From contig JAUYRZ010000132.1 of assembly GCA_030695565.1 (NCBI GenBank), positions 1-58,093 of the forward strand: DNA of 58,093 nt, read 5' to 3'. Origin of the DNA: Archangium sp. (lineage in GTDB: Bacteria; Myxococcota; Myxococcia; Myxococcales; Myxococcaceae). Position 1 is the stretch's first letter. Each line of letters starts with the position of its first letter. This document shows positions 2,384 to 22,235 of this stretch, one piece after another. Made by a program: the position numbers and the translations under genes. Under the pieces are notes generated by a model. It worked only from the letters and a program-made list of their open reading frames with translations. It searched no databases and was not told the DNA's origin.

Positions 2384-2548
2384 ACGACAGTCACTCGAGC
2401 GACAGGGCGCGCCGGAAGACCTCACCGGCGCTGTCCCTGCTGGTGGCGTGCTCGAGGCCCCGATGCTCCCGTGGCAATCCCTCTTCTCGGTTTCGGTTGT
2501 CCCGAACTTCAATTTCGCCGCGCGGGCTGCCGAGCCTTAATTCACCGC

Positions 2549-3607
2549 ATGGCCATTGCCCTGCGGACGTTCGCCTCTACCGACCTCGATCAGGTGCTGC
2601 GCCTCCACGCGGAAGTGTTCGGGGCGCCCGCCTCGCGGGAGCTCGCTCGACGCTGGGTGTGGTCGCAGGTGGAAAACCTCTGCCCCGAGCGCTCGCCCAA
2701 GTGGGTGCTCCAGGCTGACGGCGCGGTGGTGGGCTTCCTTGGAACGGTCCCCATCCCGTATCGCATCGGCGGCCGGCGGGTGATGACGCACTCCACCTGC
2801 GACTTCATGGTGGCGCCGCAACATCGGTTTCATGGCATCAACCTGCTGCGCGAGTGCTTCAAGGTCTGTGAGTCCAGCGTGAGCCTGGACGACGTCGCCG
2901 CCACCATCGCCGTCTCCAAGCTCCTCCGGGCCCAGCAGACGGGCACCATGCACCGGTACCTCAAGGTGCTCGACGCGCGCGTGGGGCTTCGCCGCTGGCC
3001 GAAGCTGCTCGCATCGGCGCGCCTGGTGTCTCGACCCGCGCGTGCCGCGCTCGCGTTGCGCGATCTCCCCTTCTTCCTCCGCCGCGCCCCGAAGGTCACC
3101 CGCCACGACGGGAGCTTCGGCGCGAGCTTCGATCGGCTGTTCGAGCGCTGCCTGGCGGCTGATCCGCTGCAGGCCACCGTGGAGCGCGACAGCCGCTATC
3201 TGCGCTGGCGCTACGGCCCCCAGTCACCGCAGGCGCACCGCGTGGTGGGCATCGTCGAGACCAACCGGGAGCTCCAGGGCTACGTGGTGTGTTGCGCTTC
3301 GCGCGGCGAAGACCACAGGGGGTACATCCTGGAGTTGGTCGCAGCGCCGCATGCTCCGCCTTCGCTGGTCGACGGGTTGGTCGCCTTCGCCGTGCGCGAA
3401 CTGCGGCGGCAGGGCTCGTGGACGGCGCGCTGGCATCTGCTGGAAGACGCGGCGGAACGACGCCGGGCCCACTTGCTCAGCTGGGGCTTCCGCCGCCACG
3501 GCGACCAATATCAGTTGCTCACCAGGCTCCCGAACTCCGCGCCGCAGCGACCCGTCTGGCACCAGGAGTTTGGTGACGGAGAGGCGAGCCACGGCTGTGT
3601 CTCGTAG
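2549..3607 (+). CDS. GNAT-family N-acyltransferase
   Basis: The 352-residue protein has an N-terminal GNAT fold: a V-V-G-F-L-G strand in the acceptor half, then V-A-P-Q-H-R-F-H-G, which matches the acyl-CoA-binding Q/R-x-x-G-x-G/A signature. A second acyltransferase-like half occupies the C-terminus. I chose the ATG at 2549 because the sequence before it (an earlier ATG is at 2471) reads like non-coding intergenic DNA; no clear RBS decides the start. It sits 29 bases upstream of an acyl carrier protein gene and on the same strand as an acyl ligase and a decarboxylase. It may therefore transfer an acyl or amino-acyl group made by that set. Substrate unknown. Confidence 0.72.
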   Translation: MAIALRTFASTDLDQVLRLHAEVFGAPASRELARRWVWSQVENLCPERSPKWVLQADGAVVGFLGTVPIPYRIGGRRVMTHSTCDFMVAPQHRFHGINLLRECFKVCESSVSLDDVAATIAVSKLLRAQQTGTMHRYLKVLDARVGLRRWPKLLASARLVSRPARAALALRDLPFFLRRAPKVTRHDGSFGASFDRLFERCLAADPLQATVERDSRYLRWRYGPQSPQAHRVVGIVETNRELQGYVVCCASRGEDHRGYILELVAAPHAPPSLVDGLVAFAVRELRRQGSWTARWHLLEDAAERRRAHLLSWGFRRHGDQYQLLTRLPNSAPQRPVWHQEFGDGEASHGCVS

Positions 3608-3636
3608 TCCCACAGCGCTGCTCTTGCGAAGGCACC

Positions 3637-3894
3637 ATGATCATCGACAAGCTGAAGAAGTTCATCGTCACCGAGTTGCTTCAGAGTGACATCGAACTCG
3701 ACGACGACACGTTGCTCATCAAGTCGGGCACCCTCACTTCGCTGCAGGCCGTCGAACTGGTCCAGTTCATCGAGACCGAGTTCGGCGTGGAGATCGAGCC
3801 CGAGGAGATCAGCGAGCATCAGTTCAGGTCGCCGCGCTCGGTGGCCGAGCTGGTGGAGCGAAAACAGGAAGGGCAGCGCGGGGAGGTGGCGTGA
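3637..3894 (+). CDS. Stand-alone acyl carrier protein
   Basis: An 85-residue acidic four-helix protein of acyl carrier type. The phosphopantetheine serine is Ser35 in the motif L-T-S-L; most carriers have D-S-L, so the Asp before the Ser is replaced by Thr. The stop codon overlaps the start of the acyl ligase gene (TGATG), so the two are probably translationally coupled. It is likely the carrier loaded by that ligase and is unlikely to be the fatty-acid synthesis AcpP, because no fab genes are nearby. Family assignment is strong; the partner assignment is inference from gene order. Confidence 0.85.
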   Translation: MIIDKLKKFIVTELLQSDIELDDDTLLIKSGTLTSLQAVELVQFIETEFGVEIEPEEISEHQFRSPRSVAELVERKQEGQRGEVA

Positions 3895-5456
3895 TGTTGC
3901 CTGAGTGGACCCTGTTTCACCTGCTGCAGAACGCAGCCGAGCGCGCGCCCGACCAGGTCGCGGTCGTCGACGACGACAAGACCCGCCATACCTATGGCCA
4001 GCTCCAGCAGGCCAGCGCTCGCCTGGCGCATGCGCTGCGCGCGCACGGCCTCAAGCGCGGCGATCGCGTGGGGGTCTATGTGGAGAAGAGCTTCGAGGCG
4101 CTGGCGGCCATGACCGCGTGTGCTCACGCCGGCGCTGTCTTCGTGAACATCAACCCCCTGCTGAAGGCCGCGCAGGTGGGGCACATCATGAAGAACTGCG
4201 GCGCCCGCCAGTTGATCGTCGACGGTGAGAAACTGTCGGCAGAGCTCCCTGCCGTCGACGTGGCGTACCTGCGCGGCAAGGCGCCCCCCTCACCTTCGAT
4301 CGCGGCGGACTGCGTGCGGCTGGACGACGTCTTCAAGCACGGTCCTGCCCTCGAGCCGCGCACGTGCGCCACGCAGAGCGAGCTGGGCACCATCATCTAC
4401 ACCTCGGGTTCGACCGGCTTGCCCAAGGGCATCATGCTCAGCCACCACAACCTGGTGGTGGGCGCACAGATCGTCTCGACGTACCTGGAGAACACCTCGA
4501 GCGATCGGGTGCTCAGCCTGCTGCCGCTCACCTTCGATGTGGGGATGAACCAGTTCACCACCATGCTTCGGGTGGGCGGCACCCTGGTGCTGCAGCGCTC
4601 GATGATGCCCGGCGACACCCTCGCCAATCTTCGGAAGGAGCGCATCACCGGGCTCGCCGGCGTGCCCTCGGTCTGGGCGCTGGTGCTGCAGAACAAGAAG
4701 AGCCTCGAACGCGAGCCGCTCAGCGAGCTGCGCTACGTCAGCAACACCGGCGGCATGATCCCCAGCACGCACCTCGAGCTGCTGAAGACGGTGCTGCCGA
4801 AGACGAAGATCTTCCTGATGTATGGTTTGACCGAGGCGTTCCGGTCGACGTTCTTGCCGCCCGAAGAAGTGGGTCGTGGCCCGGCCTGCATCGGCAAGGC
4901 GATCCCCAACACAGACATCTGGGTGGTGCGCCCTGACGGCACCCTGACCGCCGACGACGAGGAGGGCGAGTTGATCCACCGCGGGCCCACGGTGGCGCTG
5001 GGCTACTGGGGCGACCCGGAGAAGACGCGCGCGGCGTACCGGGTCAACCCCTTCGCGCCACCTGAGCTCAACGGCGCGGACATGGTCGTCTATTCAGGGG
5101 ACGTGGTGAGGAGAGACGCGGAGGGCTTCCTCCACTACGTCGGCCGCCGCGACGAGCAGATCAAGACGCAGGGCTACCGGGTCAGCCCGCTGGAGATCGA
5201 GGAGCTGCTCTACGGGACCGGCCGGGTGCACGAAGCCGCCGCGTTCGGGAAGAAGGACGAGCTGTTGGGGCAGCGCATCGTGGTGATCTGTTCCCTGAGC
5301 AACGGCGCTGCGGCCACGCCCGAGGAGCTGCGCAGGCTGCTCTCCACCCGCGCACCCAGCCACCTGGTGCCGCAGGAGGTGCACATCGTTCCGGACCTGC
5401 CGAAGAACGCCAACGGCAAGACCGACCGCAGCCTGCTGCGGGGGCAATACGCCTGA
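3894..5456 (+). CDS. AMP-forming acyl-CoA/acyl-ACP ligase
   Basis: About 520 residues with a complete ANL-superfamily motif set: the P-loop-like TSGSTGLPKG near residue 170, the MYGLTEA adenine-binding motif near 310, Y-S-G-D-V about 400, the hinge G-R-R-D-E-Q-I-K, and the C-terminal catalytic Lys in NANGKTDRS. It should adenylate a carboxylic or amino acid and transfer it to CoA or to the carrier protein encoded just upstream. The ATG at 3894 overlaps the ACP stop; a GTG one codon earlier is also possible. The stop overlaps the decarboxylase start (TGATG again). It resembles the ligase found with exosortase A loci, but the substrate cannot be read from sequence. Confidence 0.88.
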   Translation: MLPEWTLFHLLQNAAERAPDQVAVVDDDKTRHTYGQLQQASARLAHALRAHGLKRGDRVGVYVEKSFEALAAMTACAHAGAVFVNINPLLKAAQVGHIMKNCGARQLIVDGEKLSAELPAVDVAYLRGKAPPSPSIAADCVRLDDVFKHGPALEPRTCATQSELGTIIYTSGSTGLPKGIMLSHHNLVVGAQIVSTYLENTSSDRVLSLLPLTFDVGMNQFTTMLRVGGTLVLQRSMMPGDTLANLRKERITGLAGVPSVWALVLQNKKSLEREPLSELRYVSNTGGMIPSTHLELLKTVLPKTKIFLMYGLTEAFRSTFLPPEEVGRGPACIGKAIPNTDIWVVRPDGTLTADDEEGELIHRGPTVALGYWGDPEKTRAAYRVNPFAPPELNGADMVVYSGDVVRRDAEGFLHYVGRRDEQIKTQGYRVSPLEIEELLYGTGRVHEAAAFGKKDELLGQRIVVICSLSNGAAATPEELRRLLSTRAPSHLVPQEVHIVPDLPKNANGKTDRSLLRGQYA

Positions 5457-6802
5457 TGACTCAATACGAAAAGGCGCAGGCGCTGGTGGAGGTGCTGGGC
5501 GAGCGCCACGGCGATGAGTTCGCGCTGGGCGGCATCGCGGTCTCGGCCATCGCAGAGCAGGTGGGCACTCCGTTCTTCGCCTACGCCGGAGACGCCCTCA
5601 CCGCGCGCCTGCGCAGGGTGAAGAAGACCCTCGGTCCCGAGGTGGAGCTGTTCTTCTCCCTGAAGGCGAACCCCAGCCTGGGGTTGTGCCAGCTCATCGC
5701 CCAGGAGGGGCTGGGCGCCGAGCTGGCCTCGGTAGGTGAGCTGCGGCTGGCCCAGCGCGCCGGCTTTTCTCCGCGCAGGGCGATCTTCGCCGGCCCCGGC
5801 AAGAGCGACCAGGAGCTGCGCGAGGCCATCGAGTGGGGCCTCGAGTCGATCAACGTCGAGTCTGAAGGTGAGCTGCTCCGGGTGGCAGCGGCCGCAGCGC
5901 GGAGCCACAAGACCGCCCGGGTCAGCCTGCGCGTCAACCCGCTCAGCCAGCTCAAGGGCGCGCAGATGCGCATGGCCGGCGGCCATACCCAGTTCGGCAT
6001 CGACGAGGAGCAGCTCGAAGGCGTGCTGGCGCGCGTGGGGCGTCACCCCGGGATTCACGTCGCGGGCGTTCACGTCTATGTCGGCTCGCAGGTCGCCGAC
6101 GTCGAGGCCCTGCTCGCGCACTGCCGGGTGGTGATCGAGCTGGCGGCGCGAGTGGCCGGGCACAGCGGGACGCCGCTGGAGACGATCGACTTCGGCGGCG
6201 GGTTCGCGGTGCCCTACTTCGAAGGCGCTCCCGAGTTCGACCTCGAGGCCTTCGCGCGGGGCTTTCAGGTGATCGTCGAGGAGGGACGGAGGCGGCTCGG
6301 CCCCTTCCGCCCGATCATCGAGCTGGGCCGGTACCTGATCGCCGAGTGCGGCGTCTACGTCACCCGCGTGCTCGACGTGAAGCATTCGCGCGGCCGCACC
6401 TACGCGGTGACGGACGGGGGCATGAACCACCACATCACGGCCACCGGCAACTTCGGCCAGGTGTTCCGCAAGCCGTACCCCATGCTGGTGCTCAATCGGC
6501 TCCAGCAGCCTCGCGACGCTTCGATCACCGTGGTGGGGCCGTGCTGCACGCCGCTCGACGTGCTCGGCCACGACACCGAGCTGCCGAACGTGTCGCGCGG
6601 TGATCTCATCGGCGTCTTCTACAGCGGCGCCTACGGCTACAGCGCGAGCAGCCTGAACTTCCTGAGCCACCCCACCCCCGCGGAGGCGCTGGTCCTGGGA
6701 GGTGAGCTGCACGTGCTTCGCGAAGGAGGCGCGGCAGACCAGGTGTTGGCAGGCCAACGAGCGCTCCCTGACCGATCAACGGACACGCGCAAAGCGGGTT
6801 GA
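5456..6802 (+). CDS. PLP-dependent decarboxylase, DAP/ornithine decarboxylase fold type III
   Basis: The 448-residue protein has the alanine-racemase-like barrel and a C-terminal beta domain of the lysA/speC-type family. The PLP lysine is Lys70 in F-F-S-L-K-A-N-P. H-V-Y-V-G-S-Q and a glycine-rich phosphate loop (D-F-G-G-G-F) follow. The C-terminal substrate-site motif G-P-C-C-T-P-L-D is present, as is G-A-Y-G-Y near the end. It is the last gene of the ACP-ligase-decarboxylase set and is coupled to the ligase by a one-base overlap. A strong hairpin terminator follows 50 bases downstream. It may decarboxylate an amino acid that is free or tethered to the carrier. It resembles the decarboxylase of exosortase A systems more than housekeeping lysA, judging by neighbours. 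Confidence 0.85.
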   Translation: MTQYEKAQALVEVLGERHGDEFALGGIAVSAIAEQVGTPFFAYAGDALTARLRRVKKTLGPEVELFFSLKANPSLGLCQLIAQEGLGAELASVGELRLAQRAGFSPRRAIFAGPGKSDQELREAIEWGLESINVESEGELLRVAAAAARSHKTARVSLRVNPLSQLKGAQMRMAGGHTQFGIDEEQLEGVLARVGRHPGIHVAGVHVYVGSQVADVEALLAHCRVVIELAARVAGHSGTPLETIDFGGGFAVPYFEGAPEFDLEAFARGFQVIVEEGRRRLGPFRPIIELGRYLIAECGVYVTRVLDVKHSRGRTYAVTDGGMNHHITATGNFGQVFRKPYPMLVLNRLQQPRDASITVVGPCCTPLDVLGHDTELPNVSRGDLIGVFYSGAYGYSASSLNFLSHPTPAEALVLGGELHVLREGGAADQVLAGQRALPDRSTDTRKAG

Positions 6803-6853
6803 GACCTCCGAGACGGCGCCAATGCCGCTGGCCATCTCCTGCCCTGACACGAC

Positions 6854-6890
6854 GACGCCCGCGAAACCTTTCGGCTCGCGGGCGTCTTGT
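6854..6890 (+). terminator. Hairpin terminator after the ligase/decarboxylase operon
   Basis: A perfect 11-bp inverted repeat (GACGCCCGCGA at 6854-6864 and TCGCGGGCGTC at 6876-6886) with an 11-base loop is followed by TTGTTG. The stem and short T-rich tail fit an intrinsic terminator for the rightward operon. It lies directly left of the candidate island boundary. Confidence 0.75.
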
Positions 6891-6893
6891 TGA

Positions 6894-6904
6894 GTTGCGG
6901 GGGC
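6894..6904. other. Candidate left attachment-site repeat of the island
   Basis: The 11 bases GTTGCGGGGGC match, in the same orientation, bases 22161-22171, which form the 3' end of the tRNA-fMet gene. The position, just after a terminator and just before the defence genes, is where a left att repeat should be. The match is short and GC-rich, so chance cannot be excluded. Confidence 0.45.
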
Positions 6905-7054
6905 CCGCACTCGACATTTGCGGCGCCCCGTAGAACGTTCCGGGTCGTTGTCCCCGCCCTTCACCCGACCTCCAACCCGATCGTGCAAGGGTGAGCCGAT
7001 TCCGACGACCCCGAGCAGGGCCTACGCCGTACATCGAACGTGCGGATTTCGAGC

Positions 7055-7091
7055 GCATCAGTTGCTGACCAGGCCCATGCAACTGATGCGA
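7055..7091. other. Perfect 12-bp inverted repeat near the left island end
   Basis: CGCATCAGTTGC at 7055-7066 and GCAACTGATGCG at 7080-7091 are perfect inverted repeats around a 13-base spacer. They lie 109 bases past the dndB stop codon. No T-run follows on either strand, so a simple intrinsic terminator is not obvious. A recombinase or regulator binding site is possible. The remainder of the 397-base gap 6803-7199 holds the terminator and repeat listed separately and no convincing gene. Confidence 0.5.
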
Positions 7092-7199
7092 CAAAGTACC
7101 CTCGGAGACGAGCCTGATAGGCGAGGGCGCCTGTGGACCATCCGTGTCGTCCCAGCTGGCCAAGGGCCCGCCATGCGAACCTGGCGCAGAGGAGAGTGT

Positions 7200-8450
7200 T
7201 CACTTAGCGCGAACAAGGCGCTCGTAGTGGGGCCTGTCGTCAGGGGGGACTTGGTCCAGAATCTTCTCGCCGGAAACCAGCCGGAGGACGTTTTCAACTC
7301 GTCGGCGACCTCGATAGGTCGCCTCGAAGAACGGATCGTCGAACGAGATTGCCCGCGCTTTCGCGAACACCTTGGTGCTTGTTTCCACAACGGCACTGAC
7401 GACCTCGGACTGTTTTCGACCCGCGTGCGGCCGAGCAATGTCTGCGAGAAAGTCGCCGAGCGCTCGAATGTCAACCGCTCGCGTTAGCAGAGCTCGCTCT
7501 CCCGACCAGAGCTTCTCCTCGACCACTTGAAAGTAAGCCTTGAGCAGTGCGTATGTGTCTGCGTCTCGCTCTTCGAGGTACCAGCCGCGAAGGGCTGCCC
7601 CATCCTGCGCCTCCAAGTCGCTGCGCTTCACCCTGAACAGCGTTCGAGCCTTGAGCTGATCGCGGTCCCGTTTGGGGTTCCGAGTCAGCAAACCCAAGGC
7701 AGCGTCAACAACAGCCGCCATCGGAATCGCCCGCTTCGCACCGGGAAGTGCCTCGGCTGTAGGAGCGCCTTCCGCTTCGATCTTGACGCGCTGGTGGAGC
7801 GGGGAGTCCTTCTCGAAGTTCAGCCGTCTCGCCATGAACACTGCCAGCTTCTCGGGCGACCACTCATTCCGCGACTGATCATCAACGTTGTACCCGTAGA
7901 GGTTCATCGCGAGACCACGCCGAACGGGCTTCTGGTTGGTGTTGATTGTCGCGAACACGAAGGCCTGCACCGGCTCGGGCAGTCCAAAGAAAATCGCGCA
8001 GAGCAGATCGAAACGGTCCGGGGGCTCTTTCACGAAATCGAATGCGAAGAGGCGGTGCTGTCCGTCAACCACGCTTGCCTGCCGAGCCCCCTCCGGGATC
8101 GACAACGTCGCCAGACCCTTCGGTCCGACCTCAATCTTCCACGGCGCCGCCACATCGTCGTCGCCCGATGCGTCATCAACGGCAAGAATGATCGAATTTG
8201 GAAATGTGGCGTCAAATGTGCCGATGAATGCAGCGATCTGCTTCATTCGCTTTTCATCAGGCGCCCGCTGAGCTTCAGCGAGTTTCCCTGCCATGGGCCA
8301 ACCCGGCTTCGTGGGCGTCTCGACCATTCTGAGGGGAGGTGCGTTAGTCGTCCTTCGGAGCACCTGAGCCGGGATCGACGCGACCCAGAACTCGCCAATG
8401 GGTTGCACGACTCGAATCGCTGGCCCAACAAAGAGAGGACTATTTGCCAA
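7200..8450 (-). CDS. dndB: DGQHR-domain protein, DndB-like
   Basis: The 416-residue protein carries the diagnostic DGQHR motif (residues 129-133, within V-V-D-G-Q-H-R-L-F-A-F) followed by F-A-T-I-N-T-N-Q-K. That is the signature of the DGQHR family to which DndB belongs. In phosphorothioation systems DndB represses the dnd operon and modulates modification. Here it is the last gene of the leftward operon and overlaps the membrane-protein gene upstream by 11 bases. Being last is unusual, since dndB is more often divergent from or first before dndC. DGQHR relatives also occur in 7-deazaguanine (Dpd) islands, but DndC and DndD next door make the Dnd assignment more likely. Confidence 0.78.
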   Translation of the reverse strand: MANSPLFVGPAIRVVQPIGEFWVASIPAQVLRRTTNAPPLRMVETPTKPGWPMAGKLAEAQRAPDEKRMKQIAAFIGTFDATFPNSIILAVDDASGDDDVAAPWKIEVGPKGLATLSIPEGARQASVVDGQHRLFAFDFVKEPPDRFDLLCAIFFGLPEPVQAFVFATINTNQKPVRRGLAMNLYGYNVDDQSRNEWSPEKLAVFMARRLNFEKDSPLHQRVKIEAEGAPTAEALPGAKRAIPMAAVVDAALGLLTRNPKRDRDQLKARTLFRVKRSDLEAQDGAALRGWYLEERDADTYALLKAYFQVVEEKLWSGERALLTRAVDIRALGDFLADIARPHAGRKQSEVVSAVVETSTKVFAKARAISFDDPFFEATYRGRRRVENVLRLVSGEKILDQVPPDDRPHYERLVRAK

Positions 8451-9009
8451 GGTCTTGCTCCGGATCTCCGCCCATCGCCGCGCTCGGGGCTGCCTCCATT
8501 GAGAATCGAGGGTCGATTCCGTTGACGAGCCACCACGTCAACCAAACCGGCGCCACCACTCCGAACAGGGTCAGCCACGGGACCTGCGAGTCGGGACTCG
8601 CCTTGTAGACGAGGGAGTAGGTCAACCATCCACATCCAGCCAGCGCGACGAGCGAGATCAGAAAAAGGTTGAAGCGCACGACGCGATTCGTTTCGTCCTT
8701 GTTGATGAAGAGGTCGCCGATCGCCGAGAACACGATGGCGAATGCGTAGGTCGCGATATTGAGTGCGACATCCTTCGGCTGCGCCTGCCCGACAGCAGCC
8801 ATCACTTGCGAGAGCCACACGCCCGCGCCACCCAAAGCCGCGATGACACCGACCAAATACGGAAGCGTCCCCGCGAAAGTGTAAGGGGTGAGGAACCGAT
8901 CCACGATTACTAGCCGGATTAGCTCCCGCCACTGGGCTGTGAGTTTCTTGAGGACGATCCAGATTTTCAGCAGCATACCTTTGCTCGCCCCCCAGAGAAC
9001 CTTCAGCAC
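8440..9009 (-). CDS. Membrane protein of the Dnd-like operon
   Basis: A 189-residue protein with about four predicted membrane helices (around residues 47-70, 85-105, 115-135 and 145-165) and a basic, aromatic N-terminus. I recognise no family. It lies between the DndE-ATPase fusion (67-base gap) and the dndB-like gene, which it overlaps by 11 bases, so it is probably co-transcribed and co-translated with the modification genes. Membrane effectors are common in defence systems. A role as effector or membrane anchor is possible, but that is inference from position only. Confidence 0.7.
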   Translation of the reverse strand: MLKVLWGASKGMLLKIWIVLKKLTAQWRELIRLVIVDRFLTPYTFAGTLPYLVGVIAALGGAGVWLSQVMAAVGQAQPKDVALNIATYAFAIVFSAIGDLFINKDETNRVVRFNLFLISLVALAGCGWLTYSLVYKASPDSQVPWLTLFGVVAPVWLTWWLVNGIDPRFSMEAAPSAAMGGDPEQDLGK

Positions 9010-9076: not shown

Positions 9077-10609
9077 CTACTTCTGCTCCCAGGTTTTTAC
9101 CCTGATGATGCCGGGGCGCCCCGGAAGCCGCGTCACCGCCACACCATTCGGGAGCCCGCCAAGATCCACCGTCTCCCCGAGCACCGCCTTCAGTGCATTG
9201 GGACGCATCGCATTGGTTCTGAACGAGAGTCCGAGACCGATGTTTTCAAGGAAGTTCTCGTCTTCGGAGTCGTAGTCATCCGGCGACTGCGAGATCAGGA
9301 ACATCGTCATCCCCTTCGAGCGGCTCTCCCGCACAAGCCCGATAAGCGACGGATGGCCGTAGCCGAGCACCTTTCGCGCCTCGTCAATGCCCACGACAAG
9401 CCGAAGCGCACGGTGGCCCTGCTCATCGACCGCGGAGTCAGGTAGTGATCGGCAGTGGGCATACAGGGCGTCGAGGACCAGAAAAACGATCAGTCTCTGC
9501 GCAGTCTCCGTCGCCTCGGATACGTTGATGATCCAACTCCGGCTAAAGAAGTCGGCCGGCTTGAATCGCGGCTCGAACAACTCCCACGCGGTTAGGTCGT
9601 TGAACGTCGAGGTGACCGTGTCGTCCTTGCGCTTCTTCTCGGCGTAGACCTCGCGGAGCTTGTCCCGGACATCCTTGAACTTCACAACAGCGCTCGCGGT
9701 TAACGCGCGCTGAGCAGCCTCACGGAGCGCATCGAGCTGCGCCCCACCCGGCCTCGACTGCGTCACGAGCTGAAACGACTCCCGGAAGCGCATAGCCGCA
9801 TTCGTAATCTCTGTTGGGTTCCGATCGGCAACGTGAAGGACATCGAGCGGCACGGGACTGCGAGGTGCCGAGATGACCTCCGCCCCTATCTGACGAATGA
9901 GATCTTCGTCCGCCGCGAGGTCACCCTTGGCCATGTCGAAGAGAATCACCGGACAGCCCGACAACTCCCGGACCTGCTGAATCAGGCTGACAGCTAGTCG
10001 CGTCTTGCCCGTTCCCAAGGTCCCCATCACCGCGACGTGCGGTGAGTTTCCTCGCCCGTTGAGCAGCCACGTCACTGGCTGCTGGGTCGCAATGTCGATG
10101 CCGGGGTCGCCTAACGCGAGTTCCACTGGAACGGCCCGAGGCGAGAAATCCCCGTCTGCCCCATGTCGAAGTGCCCGCGCCTTGCCACCCTCGCGCACGC
10201 CCGCTCGCCCGCCGAGCTGGAGAACGAACCGGTCGAAGTCACCTTCGCATCGCTCCCATTCTTCGCTGAGGAGGTCGATTCCCCGATTCCAATGGCGTTT
10301 CACCAACTCCTGCACGTCGCGAACCGAGGGGTTGTCGAGCTGTGCGTGCTCGACCAAGAGAGCCACCCACACTGCGAGGTCGTCACCAAAGAGATTCTGG
10401 CCAACGATGATCTTGCCGTCTTCTTCGTCGGTATCTGACTCCTGCGCTGGCGGAGCCTTAACCGCTAGACTCCGAGCGATGGCGAGGCGGGCTGGCTCGT
10501 AGCGAGACTTCAATCCGAGAAGACTCATCAACTTGGTGTTCAAGTCGTCGGCCCGCAACGAAGTTTTGAACCCTGCGTTGTTTAGGGCGAGCAGTGTTGG
10601 TTCGGCCAC
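9077..10609 (-). CDS. DndE domain fused to HerA/FtsK-like ATPase
   Basis: This 510-residue protein has two parts. Residues 10-120 resemble DndE: a small helical protein with S-L-R-A-D-D-L-N-T-K-L, an A-R-L-A-I-A-R-S-L helix, G-x-x-L-F-G-D-D, and the terminal H-W-N-R-G-I-D-L-L. From about 165 on there is a HerA/FtsK-type ATPase with Walker A GTLGTGKT (196-203) and Walker B ending V-V-G-I-D-E-A-R near 410, then a sensor-like L-I-S-Q-S-P. Free-standing DndE is about 110-120 residues and binds nicked DNA. HerA-like ATPases occur separately as DndH/DptH in the restriction arm. The fusion may join modification with translocation or restriction. The gene starts 2 bases after the DndD stop. Confidence 0.78.
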   Translation of the reverse strand: MAEPTLLALNNAGFKTSLRADDLNTKLMSLLGLKSRYEPARLAIARSLAVKAPPAQESDTDEEDGKIIVGQNLFGDDLAVWVALLVEHAQLDNPSVRDVQELVKRHWNRGIDLLSEEWERCEGDFDRFVLQLGGRAGVREGGKARALRHGADGDFSPRAVPVELALGDPGIDIATQQPVTWLLNGRGNSPHVAVMGTLGTGKTRLAVSLIQQVRELSGCPVILFDMAKGDLAADEDLIRQIGAEVISAPRSPVPLDVLHVADRNPTEITNAAMRFRESFQLVTQSRPGGAQLDALREAAQRALTASAVVKFKDVRDKLREVYAEKKRKDDTVTSTFNDLTAWELFEPRFKPADFFSRSWIINVSEATETAQRLIVFLVLDALYAHCRSLPDSAVDEQGHRALRLVVGIDEARKVLGYGHPSLIGLVRESRSKGMTMFLISQSPDDYDSEDENFLENIGLGLSFRTNAMRPNALKAVLGETVDLGGLPNGVAVTRLPGRPGIIRVKTWEQK

Positions 10610-10611
10610 GA

Positions 10612-12678
10612 TCAGAATTCCTCGAAGTAGCCCTTGCGGACCTTGTTGATGCCGACGCCGTTGGCGATCTCCTCGTGGTCAATCACGTAGGATTCGCACA
10701 CGCGGTCCTTTACGGCCTCCAGATAGCGACCCGAGACCTCATCCGGTTGCGAAAGGAGGATGACCTGCTCGCCAGGGCGCTCGGTGAAGTACCGGAGCAC
10801 GTTCTTCCTGTGGTCGGGGTCGAGTCGAGCCAGAGGCGTGTCCATTACGACAGGCACCGAGCGCGCCGAGACCCGCGCAATTGCAGCGATGAGGGAAAGT
10901 GCGAAGATTTGATCCTCTCCCGCTGAGGCGTCCATCGTTCGAAGGTCTCGCCCCTCATCGCCGAGCAACTGCACGTTGCAACTCGCGTCGATGGCGATCT
11001 GCTTCACTAGCTTCTTGTGCGCGAGCGCCTGGTAGGCCTCAGTCATCTGCTTCCCGACGCGCTCGATGTGCTGCGGGTAAGACTCCTGAATAACTCCATC
11101 GAGCATGTCGGCAGTTCGGTCAGCCATTGCAGCACGCGCGAGCTGTGGCTGGGCCTTCTGGTGACCATCAGCGAGCCGCGCAAGTTCACGGCGCTTCGGA
11201 GCAAGCTGTCCTTGGTCCCCCTCAACATGACGCTTCAGATCCTTGACGCGTCCGTCGAGCTCGTTGTGCTCCGTGCTCACGCGTTCAAGCTCATCGGTGA
11301 GCTTTCGAGCACGGTCTTCGACGCCACTCAACTGCGCGATGCGCGAAATCTGCTTCTTGATATCGCGCTCCGCCGTCGCGAGGTTTGCGAGCAAGTCCTC
11401 AAGCTCCCCGAGGGCCAGCTCATCGACGTCCTTCAGCCGCGCTTCGAGAACCGCTCTCTCCGCAATTCCCAAGTACCTGTGTCGATACGAATCCGCACAG
11501 TCGGCAGGAGGCGGATACCAGAGCGACTCCCAGCCGAGCCGAACCTTCTGCCGAACTGCTTTCTCCTGCTCCATTGTGAGCGGAGGCTCGACTCGCGGCT
11601 CTGGTCCATCAAGCGCCGTCAGCAACTTCGTCAACTTCTCCGCGCCCTGCTCTTTGCCTGACTCCCAGCGAGAGCGAGCGGCTTCTCCCGACAGTCGGCG
11701 CATGAGCTGTTGTCTCAGTTCGCTGCCCGCAATGGCGATAGCCAAATCAGTCCGGACGAGGGCGGCGAGCCTCTCTTTGATTCGGTCCTTTTCTCGCTCG
11801 AACTTCCCCTTGTTCTCATAGAGTTCCTTGAGGTTGGCGGAGTTCCCGCCGTGGATCGAACTGAACTCCTTAACCAGTCGATCGCGCTGATTCTTGAGCG
11901 GCTCCAGCTTGGGCTCGATTTCTCCTAGCTCACCCTCAGCCTTCTCGAGCTTCCCCTCAAGCTCGCGCACCTCAGCTCGAAGCCGTTCAAGCGTCTCGTC
12001 ACCCACCTTCGGAACGCTGTTGCGGCGTTGCTGGGCAAAGGTACGCAGGTCGCTCTGGAGCGCCCTCACTACCCTAACGCCAAGAATGCTCTCGATGCCC
12101 ATTTGCACCTGAGCGGACATGTCGCGCCGCGCGAGGCGTTGAACCTGTTCGCCATCGAAGAGAAAGAACTGGGCCAAATGAACGGGCAGGAACTTCTGGG
12201 CGATGAAATTCCGCACGAAGTCATCTTGGTCCTCAAACCTCGGCACCCGAACCGGGTCTTGCTCAGGCCCGTGCCAGATCCGCACCTCTTCTTCGTCCCG
12301 CCGGTGCTTTCCGTTGCCGGAGAAGTGCCAGGTTCGCTGAACCGTGATCGCCTCGTCGTCATCCTCCAACTCCACCGTGACGCTCGCCGATGAGCGGCCC
12401 TGGTCGAGCGCATGGGCGTGCAGCGCCCGCTGAAGAAACTCGTCGTAGGACTGGGCGAGGCGCTCATCTTCGCCATCCGTCATGACCGCGCGGGCGACCA
12501 TGGCAAGTCCATCGCGGCCAAACAGGCCCATGACGATGCCTTCCAGCAGGCTCGTCTTCCCGAACCCGTTCTTCGCGCCGATCAGCACGACGTTCTTCTT
12601 CTTCGTCGGTGGCGGAAACACGAACTCGGCCTGAACGTAGGCCTTCCAGTCTCGGAGCTTGATTGATCGTATGTACAT
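10612..12678 (-). CDS. dndD: DndD-like SMC/RecN-type ATPase
   Basis: The 688-residue protein is a Rad50/SMC-like ATPase. The Walker A is G-A-K-N-G-F-G-K-T-S (34-43) and there are long Lys/Glu-rich coiled coils from about 200 to 550. The signature is D-A-S-A-G-E-D-Q, with Walker B V-P-V-V-M-D-T-P-L (from 608). The ending L-A-R-L-D-P-D-H-R matches DndD closely. In phosphorothioation DndD is thought to supply ATPase/nicking activity for sulfur incorporation together with DndC and DndE. It lies between a small protein gene (15-base gap) and the DndE fusion (2-base gap), which confirms the Dnd context. Confidence 0.88.
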   Translation of the reverse strand: MYIRSIKLRDWKAYVQAEFVFPPPTKKKNVVLIGAKNGFGKTSLLEGIVMGLFGRDGLAMVARAVMTDGEDERLAQSYDEFLQRALHAHALDQGRSSASVTVELEDDDEAITVQRTWHFSGNGKHRRDEEEVRIWHGPEQDPVRVPRFEDQDDFVRNFIAQKFLPVHLAQFFLFDGEQVQRLARRDMSAQVQMGIESILGVRVVRALQSDLRTFAQQRRNSVPKVGDETLERLRAEVRELEGKLEKAEGELGEIEPKLEPLKNQRDRLVKEFSSIHGGNSANLKELYENKGKFEREKDRIKERLAALVRTDLAIAIAGSELRQQLMRRLSGEAARSRWESGKEQGAEKLTKLLTALDGPEPRVEPPLTMEQEKAVRQKVRLGWESLWYPPPADCADSYRHRYLGIAERAVLEARLKDVDELALGELEDLLANLATAERDIKKQISRIAQLSGVEDRARKLTDELERVSTEHNELDGRVKDLKRHVEGDQGQLAPKRRELARLADGHQKAQPQLARAAMADRTADMLDGVIQESYPQHIERVGKQMTEAYQALAHKKLVKQIAIDASCNVQLLGDEGRDLRTMDASAGEDQIFALSLIAAIARVSARSVPVVMDTPLARLDPDHRKNVLRYFTERPGEQVILLSQPDEVSGRYLEAVKDRVCESYVIDHEEIANGVGINKVRKGYFEEF

Positions 12679-12693: not shown

Positions 12694-12903
12694 TCAGCGA
12701 GCGGGTGCGTCGTCTTCGACAGCGGAGAGGATCTCGTCAAAGCGTTCGTGAAGACCGCGCTTCACTTTCTTCCCAACTTGATCCAGTTCAGCCTCTACGA
12801 GCTGCTCGATGATGGAGATGGAAATTTTGTTATCCCGGCACCGCCGCTTCAGCGCGTCGCGACCCGGACCCGGTTCGAGCAAAGTAATCCCTTTGGACTT
12901 CAA
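12694..12903 (-). CDS. Small protein between dndC and dndD
   Basis: A 69-residue, charged, mostly helical protein. Its start overlaps the dndC stop by four bases (ATGA), so it is almost certainly translated. It is not DndE, because the DndE-like region lies in the ATPase fusion further on. I recall small proteins annotated only as associated with DNA modification systems in a comparable position, but cannot check that here. Its basic N-terminal half could bind DNA or the ATPase. No motif assigns a function. Confidence 0.72.
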   Translation of the reverse strand: MKSKGITLLEPGPGRDALKRRCRDNKISISIIEQLVEAELDQVGKKVKRGLHERFDEILSAVEDDAPAR

Positions 12904-14069
12904 GCGCGCTCCCGGCTCGCGTCGTCGAGCGCGATAAGTCTTCGCGCGGTGTCGACGGTGTCCGTGGCCCAGATGTTCCGGATCCGTTGAACCTCGTCGT
13001 CCGAAATCAGCGGCATCCCGACTTCGGCCTGTAGCTCAATTAGCCGGTCGAGAATCTCCTGACGCGCAGCGAGTGTGAACGGGCCGGGCATAGCCGACCC
13101 GTCGGGCATGTAGGTGATCGCGCCCGTCCGTCGCTCAGCCGACCGCTTGGTACGATCGAGCCTGAACTGCGCGAGCCAATCGCGGAATAGCATCAACGGC
13201 TCAAGATGATCGAAACCGGCGTCGATCATCGCCTCCATGCTCCTGTCCTTTTCGACAACGGTACAGGTCCAACAGCCGAACCGGGACGACGATGTGCCGC
13301 ACGAAGGGGCCTGAGACTTCTCGATGACAAGTGGGCACTCGCCTCCCTGTGCATTTCGGTAGAGCGTGACCAACTCCCTGTTGCTGCCTCCCCACGGTGG
13401 CGGTCTCTGAAGGAGGAGCGCCCAGACCTCCTCGGTAGAGAAGTCCACGATGGGCCGGAAAATCATGCACCCCTTGAGATCGTTGTGCGGGTTGAGCCGC
13501 GTGCCGTTGTCGTACTTGTTGACCGTCTGAGTCCTCGTCGCGGACTCTCCTCGACGAACGCCGAGAAGCAGGATGACCTTCGCATTCGCGGCGATCTGCG
13601 ACTTGATGTATTCCGACGTCGGTTGGATCTTCATTCGGTCGGTACACCACCGGAAGGTCCGATTGGGGGAGGGGTAACCCCTGCCAATGAGATTCACCCA
13701 AAAAGTCTGGTCTGGGTGCGGCTGCGTCTTGGCGACCCGAACCGGAAGGCGGAGGCTTTCGGCGGCACGCCCGACGCGAGCAAGCATCGAGTCGACGTAA
13801 GTCGCCAGGACCGGCGATTCGACCAGCGTGTCGTTGCAGAGCACATGCACCGTACGCTGCCGGTCGCTCGGGGCGAGATCCAAGAGCATCTCGAAGCAGA
13901 GTTGCAAGACAAGCGTCGAGTCCTTGCCCCCAGAATATCCGACGATCCACGGCGAGGCGTGGGAGGGGTCAAGATACTCTTCCCGCATCTCCGCCTTGGC
14001 CGCTTCCCATCGCTCGCGTGGTGCTGTCTCTGCGGCAGGACCGTCTCTAGTCGTCATCGAATTTGCCAC
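12900..14069 (-). CDS. dndC: DNA phosphorothioation sulfurtransferase DndC
   Basis: The 389-residue protein belongs to the PAPS-reductase/ATP-pyrophosphatase family. The PP-loop is S-G-G-K-D-S (46-51), after I-V-G-Y. Further features typical of DndC are R-W-C-T-D-R-M-K-I and the cysteines of S-C-G-T-S-S-S-R-F-G-C-W-T-C, which in DndC ligate a [4Fe-4S] cluster. DndC activates the DNA backbone or sulfur carrier with ATP. The sulfur normally comes from DndA or a housekeeping IscS, and no DndA lies in this window. It is the first gene of the leftward operon, preceded by a long gene-free region with repeated motifs. Confidence 0.9.
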   Translation of the reverse strand: MANSMTTRDGPAAETAPRERWEAAKAEMREEYLDPSHASPWIVGYSGGKDSTLVLQLCFEMLLDLAPSDRQRTVHVLCNDTLVESPVLATYVDSMLARVGRAAESLRLPVRVAKTQPHPDQTFWVNLIGRGYPSPNRTFRWCTDRMKIQPTSEYIKSQIAANAKVILLLGVRRGESATRTQTVNKYDNGTRLNPHNDLKGCMIFRPIVDFSTEEVWALLLQRPPPWGGSNRELVTLYRNAQGGECPLVIEKSQAPSCGTSSSRFGCWTCTVVEKDRSMEAMIDAGFDHLEPLMLFRDWLAQFRLDRTKRSAERRTGAITYMPDGSAMPGPFTLAARQEILDRLIELQAEVGMPLISDDEVQRIRNIWATDTVDTARRLIALDDASRERA

Positions 14070-14837
14070 TGACCCCTCTCGGCGAAAGACGGCGCACTCT
14101 TACGGGGTCGAGCGGTGCATCGCAACGAGAGGTTGGGGAAAGCTCCTGCACCCGTGCAGAATCTCGCGGGGCGATTGACACCGGCCCGAGATCGAGCCCG
14201 GAAGTTGAGAGGTCCTCTCGCCTGACTCGCCCCGCGGCGGGCGGTCGTGCCCACCACTCGCGCTCCGAAAGTGGGCAACGCACAATCGGCGGCTGGGCAG
14301 TTCCTCCGAGGGAATTGTGCTCCGCGACGGCGCGCGGATTGTGCATCGGACCGCCCAATTGAGGGCCACCCTTCCCGGAGAACGATGCACAATTCGGCAA
14401 GCGGACACCGCCGCGATTTGCGTCAACCGGTGACGGAAAAGGGTCCCCCTTCTCGGATTTGCTTTTCCTTCCTGCTTTGAACGACGCGACCAAGGAGACC
14501 GATTCGTGTGCTGTGTCGGCGCGTGCGCGGGCCCTTCGGCACGTGCGTCACGCTCGGCAACAGAAGCCCGAGCGACAGTCGCGTGACCGATCAACTTGCG
14601 TGCCGATGACTTCAGCCGCCAGGTCTCGGCAAGCGAGCATCGATCCGCCGTGGAGTCGAAATTGTCGAGTGGGCATCCGGCGGGTCCTTCACCCGGCGGG
14701 TATGTCCACCCGACGCAAGAACACGACCCCTAACAAATCCGCGGAAAACGCCCCCAAATGTCCGGGATCGCCTACCAAGCTAACGTCTTGTTCTTGTTAA
14801 CGAATTCGGACTCTTCAGAATTCTTAAAAAACGTACT
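14070..14837. promoter_or_regulatory. Gene-free 768-base region upstream of the Dnd operon
   Basis: No convincing gene is seen on either strand. It should contain the promoter of the leftward dnd operon. It holds four copies of an ATTGTGC-type motif (listed separately) between 14276 and 14398. A relatively AT-rich stretch, 14774-14836, lies just past the stop codon of the XRE gene. Length and composition suggest a regulatory region or the scar of a lost gene. Confidence 0.6.
14276..14398. promoter_or_regulatory. Four ATTGTGC motifs, candidate operator array
   Basis: The heptamer ATTGTGC or its complement GCACAAT occurs at 14280-14286, 14314-14320, 14338-14344 and 14387-14393. Copies three and four extend to a perfect 11-bp inverted repeat (ATTGTGCATCG at 14338-14348, CGATGCACAAT at 14383-14393). 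The loose consensus is GRATTGTGCNTCG. The array sits about 210-330 bases upstream of the dndC start. It is a plausible binding site for the DndB-like or XRE protein. Confidence 0.55.
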
Positions 14838-15113
14838 CTAGGAAGGGGGAGCGAGGAGTTCGTGGGGCGCCACCCGCAATGCCGCCGCGAGCCGCGCGAT
14901 GGTGTCGAGAGGCACGTTTACGATGCCTCGTTCGATTCGCTGAAAATACTGGAGCGAGAAGTCCGCCTCTTCAGCGGCGCCTTCTTGAGTGAAGCCCACG
15001 TGGGCGCGCGCCCGCTTGAGGTTCGCTGAGAGAATCCGGCGCAGCTCCAGATGAACTCGGGTGCGAGCGACGAGCAGTCTCTTCCCCGCCCGTTTTGGTC
15101 GCGCCCCTTTCAT
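14838..15113 (-). CDS. XRE-family helix-turn-helix regulator
   Basis: A 91-residue protein with a basic N-terminus and a Cro/C1-type HTH across about residues 27-85: L-R-R-I-L-S-A-N-L-K-R-A-R, then G-F-T-Q-E-G-A-A, then L-Q-Y-F-Q-R-I-E-R-G, then V-P-L-D-T-I-A-R-L-A. It is divergent from the secreted-protein gene at 15178, with a perfect 8-bp palindrome in the 64-base space between them. That suggests it controls its own and the divergent promoter. Control of the dnd operon downstream of it, on the same strand, is also possible. Confidence 0.85.
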   Translation of the reverse strand: MKGARPKRAGKRLLVARTRVHLELRRILSANLKRARAHVGFTQEGAAEEADFSLQYFQRIERGIVNVPLDTIARLAAALRVAPHELLAPPS

Positions 15114-15131
15114 GAAGCGCTGACGGTTCCA

Positions 15132-15152
15132 CTACAACCTCACGGGTTGTAG
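15132..15152. promoter_or_regulatory. Palindromic operator between the XRE gene and its divergent neighbour
   Basis: CTACAACC at 15132-15139 and GGTTGTAG at 15145-15152 form a perfect 8-bp inverted repeat with a 5-base spacer. Such a site in a short divergent intergenic region is typical of an XRE-family operator. A second, smaller inverted repeat (GGGTT and AACCC, 15144-15157) overlaps it. Confidence 0.7.
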
Positions 15153-15177
15153 AACCCATTAGGTTTCAAGGAGGCTT

Positions 15178-16212
15178 ATGAGCCGATCACCAACCTACGT
15201 TGGGCTTCTTCTGTGCGTCCCTCTTCTTGCGCAAATCGCAAATGCGGATGGCACCGCTGAGTCGCGAATTTCTGCAGTCAAGAAGCTCGACCTGGCTGAG
15301 CACCTACTCGACAAAGGAGATGGCATCGGCGCGGCTCGTGCCCTTCTCGAGGCAGACTCGTTCGACGAGCACGCCGATCCAGAACGCCGAGCAAGAATCT
15401 ACGCGCGAGTGAGGCCCGACGAGGAAGATGCGGAGCGCGACGCCGCAGTGCGACTAAGGGATGAAGGGGCGCGAACCGACAAGGACATAGCCGACGAGGA
15501 GCTGGCAGTTGGGGCAAGTACTCTTCTCAAGAAAGTCAGGAGCCTCCTCAAGCGCGGCAAGCTGACTGAGGCACGAGCACTCTTCGACGGCCTCTCCGAA
15601 GATGTCAGGCGACAGAACGCATTCACTGCAGGAGCCGAATGGGACGCGGTGCGAATCGAGATGATCGATGGGTTCATCGCCCAAGGCCTCAGGAACGCAC
15701 GAAAGAATCAGCCCAACCAAGCCGATGCCGATGCTGAAGCGGCGAAGAGCCTCGGCGGCGAGATCTCCTTCTTGCGTAGCGCAATTGAGTCGACCTCAGA
15801 CCGCAAGAAGGCGCGCGCTGAAGAAGTTCGGCGCGAATTGCGTGAACGCATGTCTAGCCGATTGCGGAACGCGCGGTTCATTTGGCTGCCACAGGCAAAC
15901 GCCTGGGCCGACGCCTACTCCAGAGCGATGGGTGCTCTCGCGAATCCACGCGATTGGCGCGGGACGCTGCGCGAAGAGCAGATCCAAGGTTTCTTGAAGG
16001 CGCGCGAAGCCGCGCGACCGCGGCTTCATCGAATCATCGAACTCTGCCGTTCGATTGAGCGACTCGCGAAGGGCGATGAATGCGCTGCCCACACTGACCG
16101 CTGCGCGATTGATCTCGCCGCCGCGGAGATCGAATTCGAACAGATTCGAACGAGCCTGGAAGGTTGGCTCCACGCCGCGATCGAGGATCGCCAAAGAGCC
16201 CTCGCGCTCTGA
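15178..16212 (+). CDS. Secreted helical protein of unknown function
   Basis: The 344-residue protein starts at an ATG 2-3 bases after a consensus RBS stretch (AAGGAGG at 15169-15175). It has a Sec signal peptide ending near Ala-Asn-Ala at residues 21-23. The rest is highly charged and helical, rich in Arg, Glu and Ala, with possible coiled-coil or TPR-like segments around residues 40-180. The only two cysteines flank a short segment near the C-terminus (D-E-C-A-A-H-T-D-R-C). I recognise no family. It is divergent from the XRE gene and probably under its control, as cargo of the mobile island. Confidence 0.75.
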   Translation: MSRSPTYVGLLLCVPLLAQIANADGTAESRISAVKKLDLAEHLLDKGDGIGAARALLEADSFDEHADPERRARIYARVRPDEEDAERDAAVRLRDEGARTDKDIADEELAVGASTLLKKVRSLLKRGKLTEARALFDGLSEDVRRQNAFTAGAEWDAVRIEMIDGFIAQGLRNARKNQPNQADADAEAAKSLGGEISFLRSAIESTSDRKKARAEEVRRELRERMSSRLRNARFIWLPQANAWADAYSRAMGALANPRDWRGTLREEQIQGFLKAREAARPRLHRIIELCRSIERLAKGDECAAHTDRCAIDLAAAEIEFEQIRTSLEGWLHAAIEDRQRALAL

Positions 16213-16439
16213 TTCGCGGACCCTGAGGGTTCAACCGAGAGGGCTCACGCAAAGGTCGAGGCAATTGCGGCCTTGCCGCCGCTTTCGTCGACTCCATGTC
16301 GTCTTGTGGAGGGCGCTCGGCCACGCGGTCAGGCCCGATGCCATACAAGCGCCCCAATTGGGGTCGTAGGTCACAAACGCCGGTGCGGATCGCCCTCCGT
16401 CCGGTCCCAAGCCGTTCGGCGCTTCCGCGCCGATTCTAA

Positions 16440-16466
16440 GGGCCGATAACAAGAGGTTATCGGCCC
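16440..16466. other. Perfect 11-bp inverted repeat upstream of the tyrosine recombinase
   Basis: GGGCCGATAAC at 16440-16450 and GTTATCGGCCC at 16456-16466 pair perfectly around a 5-base loop (AAGAG). No T-tract follows. It lies 22 bases before the recombinase start codon, in the 276-base gap 16213-16488 that otherwise holds nothing recognisable. It could be a recombinase binding/crossover site, or an RNA hairpin controlling the recombinase. Confidence 0.55.
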
Positions 16467-16488
16467 CACCCACCACCAAGGAGAGACC

Positions 16489-17481: not shown

Positions 17482-17792
17482 GACGACGCAACGAAACCGT
17501 TCGGAGCCCCACGGCGGTTCTCCCTCACGTCGTCAATCGCGCCACTCTTGGGCTCGTCCTGGATTGGTACTCATGTCCCTTCATGCGGCTTCGAGTCCCA
17601 AACTCGCAGTTCGCACGGCGTCGATACCTTCAGGAGACGCGCCCTGCCCTTCGCTGGTTCTGCCGCAACCACCAGGTGAAGGTCCCAAGTTGGCTGTGCG
17701 ACGACCGGCAATACCTCGAGCTGAGTCGGAAGGATCGCTGCGCGCTTTTCGGCGCGGCGCCTCTGACCATCATCGAGTTCCCACGTTGTTAG
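17478..17792 (+). CDS. Small basic protein coupled to the tyrosine recombinase
   Basis: I start this 104-residue protein at GTG 17478, which overlaps the recombinase stop as GTGA. An ATG at 17583 is a possible shorter start. The product is basic and aromatic (A-L-R-W-F-C-R-N-H-Q-V-K-V-P-S-W-L) and has four Cys. No family is recognised. The overlap suggests a partner or regulator of the recombinase, such as a directionality factor, but that is inference. Confidence 0.6.
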   Translation: MRRRNETVRSPTAVLPHVVNRATLGLVLDWYSCPFMRLRVPNSQFARRRYLQETRPALRWFCRNHQVKVPSWLCDDRQYLELSRKDRCALFGAAPLTIIEFPRC

Positions 17793-17887
17793 GCGCTTCC
17801 GAATGGCCTCTTGTTACTCTTCGCTTGGCAATCGGAGGGGTACTGGGTCAGAGCAATTTTTTCCTTTTCTCCTCTCGCAGCGCGCTC

Positions 17888-18457: not shown

Positions 18458-18508
18458 CTCGAGGTTGCTGACCGGGATCTGCTTGGTAGCCGGTGCTCCT
18501 GTCGGTGC

Positions 18509-20533: not shown

Positions 20534-20544
<11 letters not shown>
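18721..20544 (+). CDS. Primase-polymerase-like (AEP-type) replication protein
   Basis: A 607-residue protein starting at TTG, coupled to the HTH gene. Residues 100-260 look like an archaeo-eukaryotic primase core: V-V-I-D-L-D (metal-binding D-x-D), then S-S-A-S-G-G-L-H-I-Y-F (the s-x-H nucleotide motif), then G-I-K-I-E-N-G-Y-C-E-V-F-P. The remaining 300 residues include a helical segment (S-F-R-L-L-Q-F-F-V-G-K-G-W) and a basic C-terminus. Such proteins start replication of plasmids and integrative elements, or act in defence. There is no helicase domain. Assignment rests on the three motifs and element context. Confidence 0.6.

Positions 20545-22235
<1,691 letters not shown>

Follow-up and report, generated by a model that had tools for sequence, protein, structure and literature searches.

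The Archangium sp. DNA analyzed here, a stretch of 58,093 nucleotides that we refer to as the window, carries a set of phosphorothioation genes in which a DndE-like domain and a HerA/FtsK-like ATPase are encoded by a single reading frame. In canonical systems, DndE and DndH are two distinct proteins, and the question raised by this locus is therefore what their joining in one chain could do for the system: whether it ties the DNA modification complex to a motor, whether it takes over the restriction arm that DndFGH otherwise provides, or whether restriction is to be sought in other genes.

Organization of the Operon and Its Genomic Setting

The phosphorothioation gene set lies on the minus strand in the order dndC, small protein, dndD, dndE::herA, membrane protein and DGQHR protein, and is summarized in Table 1. 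From dndC to the DGQHR gene, the intergenic gaps are -4, 15, 2, 67, and -11 bases, where the negative values are overlaps of the start of the small-protein gene with the end of dndC and of the DGQHR gene with the membrane-protein gene; because of this spacing, we read the six genes as one operon. The placement of the fusion in a DndC-DndD operon, as proposed by an earlier reading of the sequence only, is borne out by the DndC, DndD and DndE models (TIGR03183, TIGR03185 and PF08870), which all score above their cut-offs. The small-protein gene and the two genes downstream of the fusion were not part of that reading.

Table 1. Positions, strand and supporting evidence of the operon genes and of the domains of the fusion protein
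Feature	Position	Strand	Description	Evidence
dndC	12900-14069	(-)	389 aa, sulfurtransferase	TIGR03183
Small protein gene	12694-12903	(-)	69 aa, TTG start	ORF; resemblance to canonical DndC C-terminal tail
dndD	10612-12678	(-)	688 aa, coiled-coil ABC ATPase	TIGR03185
dndE::herA fusion gene	9077-10609	(-)	510 aa, GTG start	
DndE domain of fusion	10205-10609	(-)	residues 1-135	PF08870, hhalign, AlphaFold model
DndH-type HerA/FtsK motor domain of fusion	9080-10132	(-)	residues 160-510	PF01935, 7es4
Small membrane protein gene	8440-9009	(-)	189 aa, 3 hydrophobic segments	hydropathy count
DGQHR protein gene	7200-8450	(-)	416 aa, DndB/ParB-like	TIGR03187, PF14072

The G+C content is 0.60-0.63 between 7.5 and 22.5 kb, compared to 0.645-0.69 on the flanks, and this low-G+C stretch (about 7.2-22.3 kb) includes a tyrosine recombinase (16489-17481), a large serine recombinase (20534-22180) and, by a weak match, a Prim-Pol-like gene (18721-20544). 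We infer that the operon region is an acquired island. A search for exact direct repeats of at least 14 bases between positions 6500-7300 and 14000-24500 found none, and thus no attachment repeats. We note that, beside the island, the plus strand carries in series (2471-6802) a GNAT acetyltransferase, a small acidic protein, an AMP-binding enzyme and a PLP decarboxylase, which possibly form a small biosynthetic cluster.

The DndE Part of the Fusion

The fusion frame begins 2 bases past dndD and is uninterrupted throughout its 510 codons. PF08870 (DndE) matches residues 15-117 with an E-value of 2.8e-8 (34.5 bits, cut-off 25), and the fusion is the sole match to this model in its own genome; the score with the stricter DndE equivalog model, TIGR03184, is 21.2 bits, short of the 71.85 cut-off. 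At the profile level, the N-terminal domain of 23 fusions aligns with three canonical DndE proteins with an hhalign probability of 93.4% (E 2.5e-7, 106 columns), with control comparisons of the same profile to DndB, DndC and DndD giving at most 0.4%. The earlier description of the first ~120 residues as DndE-like, for which a lack of profile similarity to DndE had been named as the refuting outcome, is thus upheld by both comparisons. We note that DndE is absent from the structure matches of the whole fusion model, the list being filled by the motor.

In the AlphaFold model of the fusion, built with 23 sequences (mean pLDDT 88.4), both the DndE part and the motor are ordered, residues 138-154 have pLDDT values below 50, and the motor starts near residue 160, such that a disordered linker is predicted between the DndE part and the motor. 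Artefactual merging of two genes, through misassembly or a frameshift, has in its favor that the canonical counterparts are separate proteins, but the relatives of the fusion speak decisively against it. Two peptide patterns, searched against 84,980 genomes, gave at least 28 loci with such relatives, and 22 of these 28 align with the window's protein through both domains, at 30-41% identity; we have thus ruled out an artefact, the chance of which is negligible.

The Motor Domain and Its Relation to DndH

The HerA central domain (PF01935) covers residues 189-377 of the fusion (31.8 bits, cut-off 23.2), the best PADLOC matches are to the DndH C-terminus (E 3e-19), and the best match among PDB sequences is DptH (7es4, E 2e-9). 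Superposition of the modeled motor on 7es4 (DndH-C) gives a Z-score of 38.4 and an rmsd of 2.1 over 335 aligned residues at 22% identity, with VirB4 (Z 26.9), HerA entries (about 23-18) and FtsK (about 18) as the runners-up. From this ranking, the modeled motor is nearest to the DndH motor, and not to a generic HerA. The motor motifs comprise GTLGTGKT at residue 196 and IDEA ending at residue 411, followed by RESRSKGMTMFLISQ at residues 427-441, and an alignment of 23 fusions shows no variation at the Walker A (G196, G201, K202, T203) and Walker B (D409, E410) positions or at R430 and Q441. A glutamine with an upstream arginine is given, in the part of PMC10853773 available to us, as the signature of the DndH HerA/FtsK domain. 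The sequence-only reading had placed a P-loop ATPase with both the GTLGTGKT and IDEA motifs at residues 165-510, in agreement with the PF01935 and DndH-C matches.

The window's protein shares with DndH/DptH the fold of the whole motor domain, but consists, beyond its DndE part, of this motor only, whereas DndH is described in a section of PMC10853773 as averaging 1700 residues and as including a nuclease besides further domains. Matching to Pfam, PADLOC, PDB sequences and structures found no nuclease domain in the fusion, and DndH was matched over its motor part alone, both in the window and, by one DptH query, in the genome to which it belongs. As the fusion contains no nuclease, it is not by itself a restriction arm.

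DndC, the Small Protein and DndD

The window's DndC scores 387 bits with TIGR03183 (cut-off 290.4) and is the sole match to this model in the genome. It carries the PP-loop SGGKDS at residue 46, and its cysteines 142, 245, 257, 266 and 269 are conserved across seven aligned DndC proteins. It is, however, without the canonical C-terminal tail: four canonical DndC proteins (493-544 aa) continue for 104-120 residues beyond the end point of the window's protein. A profile of 14 small proteins aligns with this tail over 45 columns (hhalign probability 95.1%, E 3.3e-8) and finds the same place when compared to whole DndC (90.2%), with DndB, DndD, DndE and 20 column-shuffled DndC alignments as controls all giving 1.3% or less. 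We read the small protein as a probable detached DndC tail, encoded separately from the rest of DndC. The Pfam model Sp-DndD gives 14 bits on the window's small protein, under its cut-off of 27.2. Such small proteins are described as rapidly evolving and mostly disordered in a section of PMC10853773, and among the literature matches listed we found no account of an origin from the DndC tail.

The neighboring DndD scores 271 bits with TIGR03185 (cut-off 245.85), and PADLOC ranks PbeC (E 2.5e-209) ahead of DndD (E 2.1e-90) as its nearest family. With the PbeABCD/CxC ABC-ATPase systems, the window's operon shares the small protein beside an ABC ATPase, but it differs from them in having DndC, in lacking the CxC motif (cysteines 394, 567 and 661 are the only ones in DndD), and in that the genes scanned did not include an HKD-helicase PbeA. 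The missing motif speaks against assignment to the CxC/Pbe type, but the PADLOC ranking speaks for it, and the motif comparison had no positive control, as a presumed CxC-type Mesorhizobium ATPase was also without it. With respect to the sulfur supply, the operon contains no DndA/cysteine desulfurase, with seven homologue matches elsewhere in the genome, two of them in one frame.

Distribution and Co-divergence of the Fusion

Joining of DndE to a HerA/FtsK motor is already published and is not new here: Rakesh, Aravind and Krishnan (2024, PMC10853773) describe, in the portion of their paper available, HerA/FtsK fused to DndE beside a DndD-like ABC ATPase ("clade-3") in a subset of Dnd systems. 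The window's fusion is like these in having DndE and HerA/FtsK in one chain with a DndD-like ATPase adjoining, a likeness of architecture. The same portion of the paper makes no mention, for its fusions, of a linked membrane protein or of the small protein as a DndC tail. A widespread fusion with a known different function had been named as grounds for giving up the sequence-only reading; the fusion does indeed occur elsewhere and in print, but no function is attached to the published fusions.

The 28 loci are spread over alpha-, beta- and gammaproteobacteria, Desulfobulbus, and members of groups such as the Rhodothermales and Verrucomicrobia. Six of them (L022, L023, L027, L030, L032 and L036) are truncated where the sequence ends, and L037 is split into several frames. 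Both dndC and dndD precede the fusion in 20 of the 28, such that the search for other DndC-DndD neighborhoods with this fusion, suggested from the sequence alone, has been successful, and a small-protein match is present in 18 of these 20 (all except L015 and L031). At L029, where the match covers fusion residues 62-499 (L029:4396-6487), the upstream 5 kb contain neither a dndC nor a dndD match; here, a methyltransferase match adjoins the fusion on the opposite strand. Among 195 genomes of the window's own phylum, the fusion query has matches in two, namely the window's genome and one in which the matching frame is 1673 aa long and resembles DptH as well, and the fusion proper is found in the window's genome alone.

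Across 18 loci including the window, the pairwise distances of DndC, DndD, the DndE part and the motor correlate with r values of 0.82-0.97, and none of 2000 permutations gave correlations as high. At the level of these sequence distances, the fusion is shown to have diverged together with DndC and DndD. Equivalent operons in Rhizobium phaseoli, Aureimonas and Burkholderia glumae share the order dndC, small protein, dndD and DndE/motor fusion, and those of Rhizobium phaseoli and Aureimonas also carry a membrane protein and a DGQHR protein; in all three, however, DndE is joined to an FtsK-annotated motor, with 22-23% overall identity of the fusion to that of the window. Judged from annotation and alignment, fusions of DndE with at least two kinds of motor thus seem to have arisen.

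The neighbor genes of the fusion loci were scanned in part, covering ten proteins (nine neighbors and one dndC) plus a few others. Beside the fusion operons, these include a SAM methyltransferase (L010:11532-12593), a TusA-like sulfur carrier (L011:11542-11784) and a phosphorothioation-associated putative methyltransferase (L018:11585-14164, TIGR04096 above cut-off).

Candidates for the Restriction Arm

Compared to the canonical DndBCDE and DndFGH systems, the window's operon shares, by sequence, the DndC, DndD and DndE functions, but it is without a TIGR03233 DndB match, its DndC is tail-less, its DndE bears a motor, and no DndF or DndH was found. In the window's own genome, a single DptH query matched the fusion only, and a DptF query (a single query, with no positive control) gave no match, such that by these single queries there is no sign of DndFGH in this genome; a DndFGH arm hidden elsewhere is improbable on the same results, although divergent forms may have escaped the DptH and DptF queries. 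The sequence-only reading had proposed a compact system in which one chain links modification to DNA translocation or restriction and DndFGH is not needed. The link of DndE to a DndH-type motor within a DndC-DndD operon is supported, and the single queries gave no sign of DndFGH, while the restriction half of the proposal finds no support, given that no nuclease domain was found in the fusion, which matches the motor part of DndH alone.

It could nevertheless be argued that the motor itself is the defense arm, with DndD and DndE at unmodified sites pumping or stripping foreign DNA and the fusion replacing the corresponding part of DndH, such that DndFGH would be superfluous. This would be in line with a motor closest to that of DndH and not to a generic HerA, and with the failure of single queries to find DndH or DndF elsewhere. 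However, a nuclease domain was not found in the fusion, the covarying DndC, DndD, DndE and motor distances also fit a subunit of the modification complex, and another DGQHR protein is present in five of the 28 fusion loci, being preceded in four by a small protein (one member having a weak nuclease match). Taking these points together, we consider this explanation unlikely.

Restriction could also be performed by a modification-reading enzyme encoded elsewhere, for example by one of two GmrSD_N proteins on other contigs (C74:14230-14838, in a 526-aa frame, and C122:5540-5983, in a 719-aa frame). Both exceed the family cut-off, and the N-terminal DUF262 of DndI belongs to the same wider group according to the accessible part of PMC11662687. 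As both are on other contigs and the family is common, being present in 8 of 14 control genomes, we regard this as highly improbable.

The Membrane-Protein/DGQHR Pair

The DGQHR protein at the end of the operon scores 140.7 bits with TIGR03187 (cut-off 58.85) and 38.7 with PF14072 (cut-off 29.1), and 318.5 bits with TIGR04172, the "DGQHR protein 1" equivalog, under the 450 cut-off of this model. The 14 best structure matches of its model are all ParB or ParB-like proteins (Noc, KorB, PadC), with Z-scores of only 8.0-6.2, such that a ParB-like N-terminal domain is weakly indicated; Foldseek of the same model gave nothing significant, and a profile of the DGQHR proteins found no credible match among PDB sequences. 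No nuclease match was obtained for it with the Pfam and TIGR models.

We compared 13 bacterial loci with a DGQHR gene of this kind, comprising the window, L028 and 11 of 12 plasmid-collection records (a Rhizobium record duplicating the coordinates of another was left out). In all 13, the gene directly upstream of the DGQHR gene encodes a protein of 157-228 aa with 2-4 hydrophobic segments, called, as throughout, by a simple hydropathy count. Based on annotation, matches and frames, the context is Dnd-type genes in 11 of these loci and adenine methylases in the remaining two (L047 and L049). A profile of nine other membrane proteins ranks the window's protein as the best of 326 ORFs (E 8e-17, the next being 0.56), and in leave-one-out comparisons 10 of the 13 were recovered, with L028, L047 and L049 missed. 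The membrane proteins of L028 and of the viral loci discussed below are 14-19% identical to that of the window. The membrane partners may thus not all be homologous.

The viral contigs provided 29 loci with DGQHR matches, of which L082 has no upstream gene, leaving 28 for assessment (21 strong and 7 weak matches). All 21 strong matches are preceded by an ORF with 2-5 segments (19 of these ORFs distinct, as L080/L090 and L091/L092 share theirs), compared to none of the 7 weak matches with an upstream ORF of two or more segments, and to a background of two or more segments in 15 of 277 other ORFs of at least 100 aa in the viral loci. Eight neighbor genes at six viral pairs comprise five D12 adenine methylases (at five of the six loci), two repressor-like genes and one integrase. 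In E. coli 55989 (L101:9001-10680), the pair is flanked by dptFGH and dndEDCB, and the annotation divides its DGQHR gene into two pieces. Among 5426 E. coli genomes, the DNA of the pair was matched in 176, including 109 in which the match extends over at least 80% of the query. The membrane protein of this strain is annotated as belonging to the accessory gene regulator B family. Among seven membrane proteins, PADLOC gave only very weak matches (E 0.006-0.009), to "2TM effector" for the window and L045 and to RT-SLATT for L074, none of which carries weight by itself, and PHROGs gave no match for six.

Among the fusion loci, the pair lies beside the operon at L028 only (1/28), and a DGQHR-domain match (E 1e-3) is absent from 18 of the 28 fusion genomes; the core would thus work without the pair or with other partners. 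A different DGQHR protein is found at L019 and, following a small protein, at L021:7672-9428, L031:11572-13330, L033:8898-10651 and L032:910-2666. A GIY-YIG scan of the alternative small protein, covering L021, L031 and L033, gave 22.1 bits for L031, under the cut-off of 22.6, and no match for the other two. In a TIGR04172 survey at E 1e-20, 3 of 385 genomes in the class of G213 (G213 included) and 1 of 369 in that of G209 gave matches, which are too few for statistics. Three of these four DGQHR domains lie in frames of 745-798 aa (L069, L070 and L071), which perhaps carry another joined domain.

According to the available text of PMC3226654, a DGQHR protein was listed in 2011 as confined to phosphorothioation genomes (7/7); for the membrane/DGQHR pair itself, we found no account among the literature matches listed. 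The closest analogues are SspE and DndI, in which a ParB-like NTPase is coupled to an HNH nuclease (PMC11662687 and PMC13251355, in the parts seen); DndI is the gene product reported together with dndFGH in Salmonella Cerro 87 (PMC11662687, in part), and for the DUF262 switch, a relationship to the DGQHR domain is described in the section seen of PMC4619093. The window's operon has in common with these a putative ParB-like NTPase accompanying a phosphorothioation system (the DndI motif being DGQQR in the excerpt available), but where SspE and DndI bear an HNH nuclease, its DGQHR protein has no nuclease match and is paired with a membrane protein. Because DndI and SspE couple a related switch to a nuclease, the pair may, by analogy, be a modification-sensing membrane effector. 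More broadly, and only tentatively, we suggest that the pair could be a two-gene defense module serving modification systems of differing chemistry (phosphorothioation and adenine methylation), in which the DGQHR protein would read the mark and the membrane protein would kill or stall the cell in place of the SspE/DndI nuclease; in the window, it would be the effector of the motor-driven operon.

The same genes could instead form a regulator pair, in which a DndB-like repressor is held at, or released from, the membrane. DndB, the nearest characterized DGQHR protein and a bearer of the same motif, is described as a transcriptional repressor of the dnd genes in the accessible portions of PMC4507180 and PMC12704722, whereas a separate dndB-annotated gene coexists with the pair in four loci (L046, L048, L050 and L101), and the viral neighbors are adenine methylases, and not dnd genes, in 5 of the 6 loci scanned. 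A regulatory role is a possible but doubtful explanation in our view.

A Proposed Role for the Motor-Bearing Operon

Our preferred explanation, to which we give about an even chance, is that of a compact, motor-bearing phosphorothioation operon in which the motor aids modification, and restriction is located in an exchangeable module, here the membrane/DGQHR pair. The domains are assigned from sequence and models. DndD and the DndE part would scan for target sites, and the motor would move the complex, or the DNA, along, thus bringing sites to DndC, which would depend on a host cysteine desulfurase and be complemented by the small protein as its detached tail. Restriction would sit in the exchangeable neighbor module and not in the fusion: the DGQHR protein, as a ParB-like nucleotide switch, would read the modification state of the DNA, and upon entry of unmodified DNA would let the membrane protein damage the inner membrane. 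Counted against this explanation are the 18 fusion genomes without a DGQHR match, the occurrence of the pair at L028 only, the GmrSD_N proteins elsewhere in the genome, the reported repressor function of DndB, the calling of membrane segments from a hydropathy count, and the null Foldseek result for the DGQHR model.

Conclusions

New in the present work, from sequence comparisons, are the probable identity of the small protein as a detached DndC tail and the recurrence of the membrane/DGQHR pair. A protein that has appeared in print as mostly disordered would thereby be explained as a split-off tail of DndC, and the recurring pair is flagged beside adenine methylases as well as Dnd operons. 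The fusion shows that DndE and a DNA motor can be encoded as a single chain within a predicted phosphorothioation operon, such that a role for translocation in modification can be tested with a single point mutant. Should the pair indeed prove to be an effector, immunity guided by DNA modification would have membranes, and not only DNA, as its targets.
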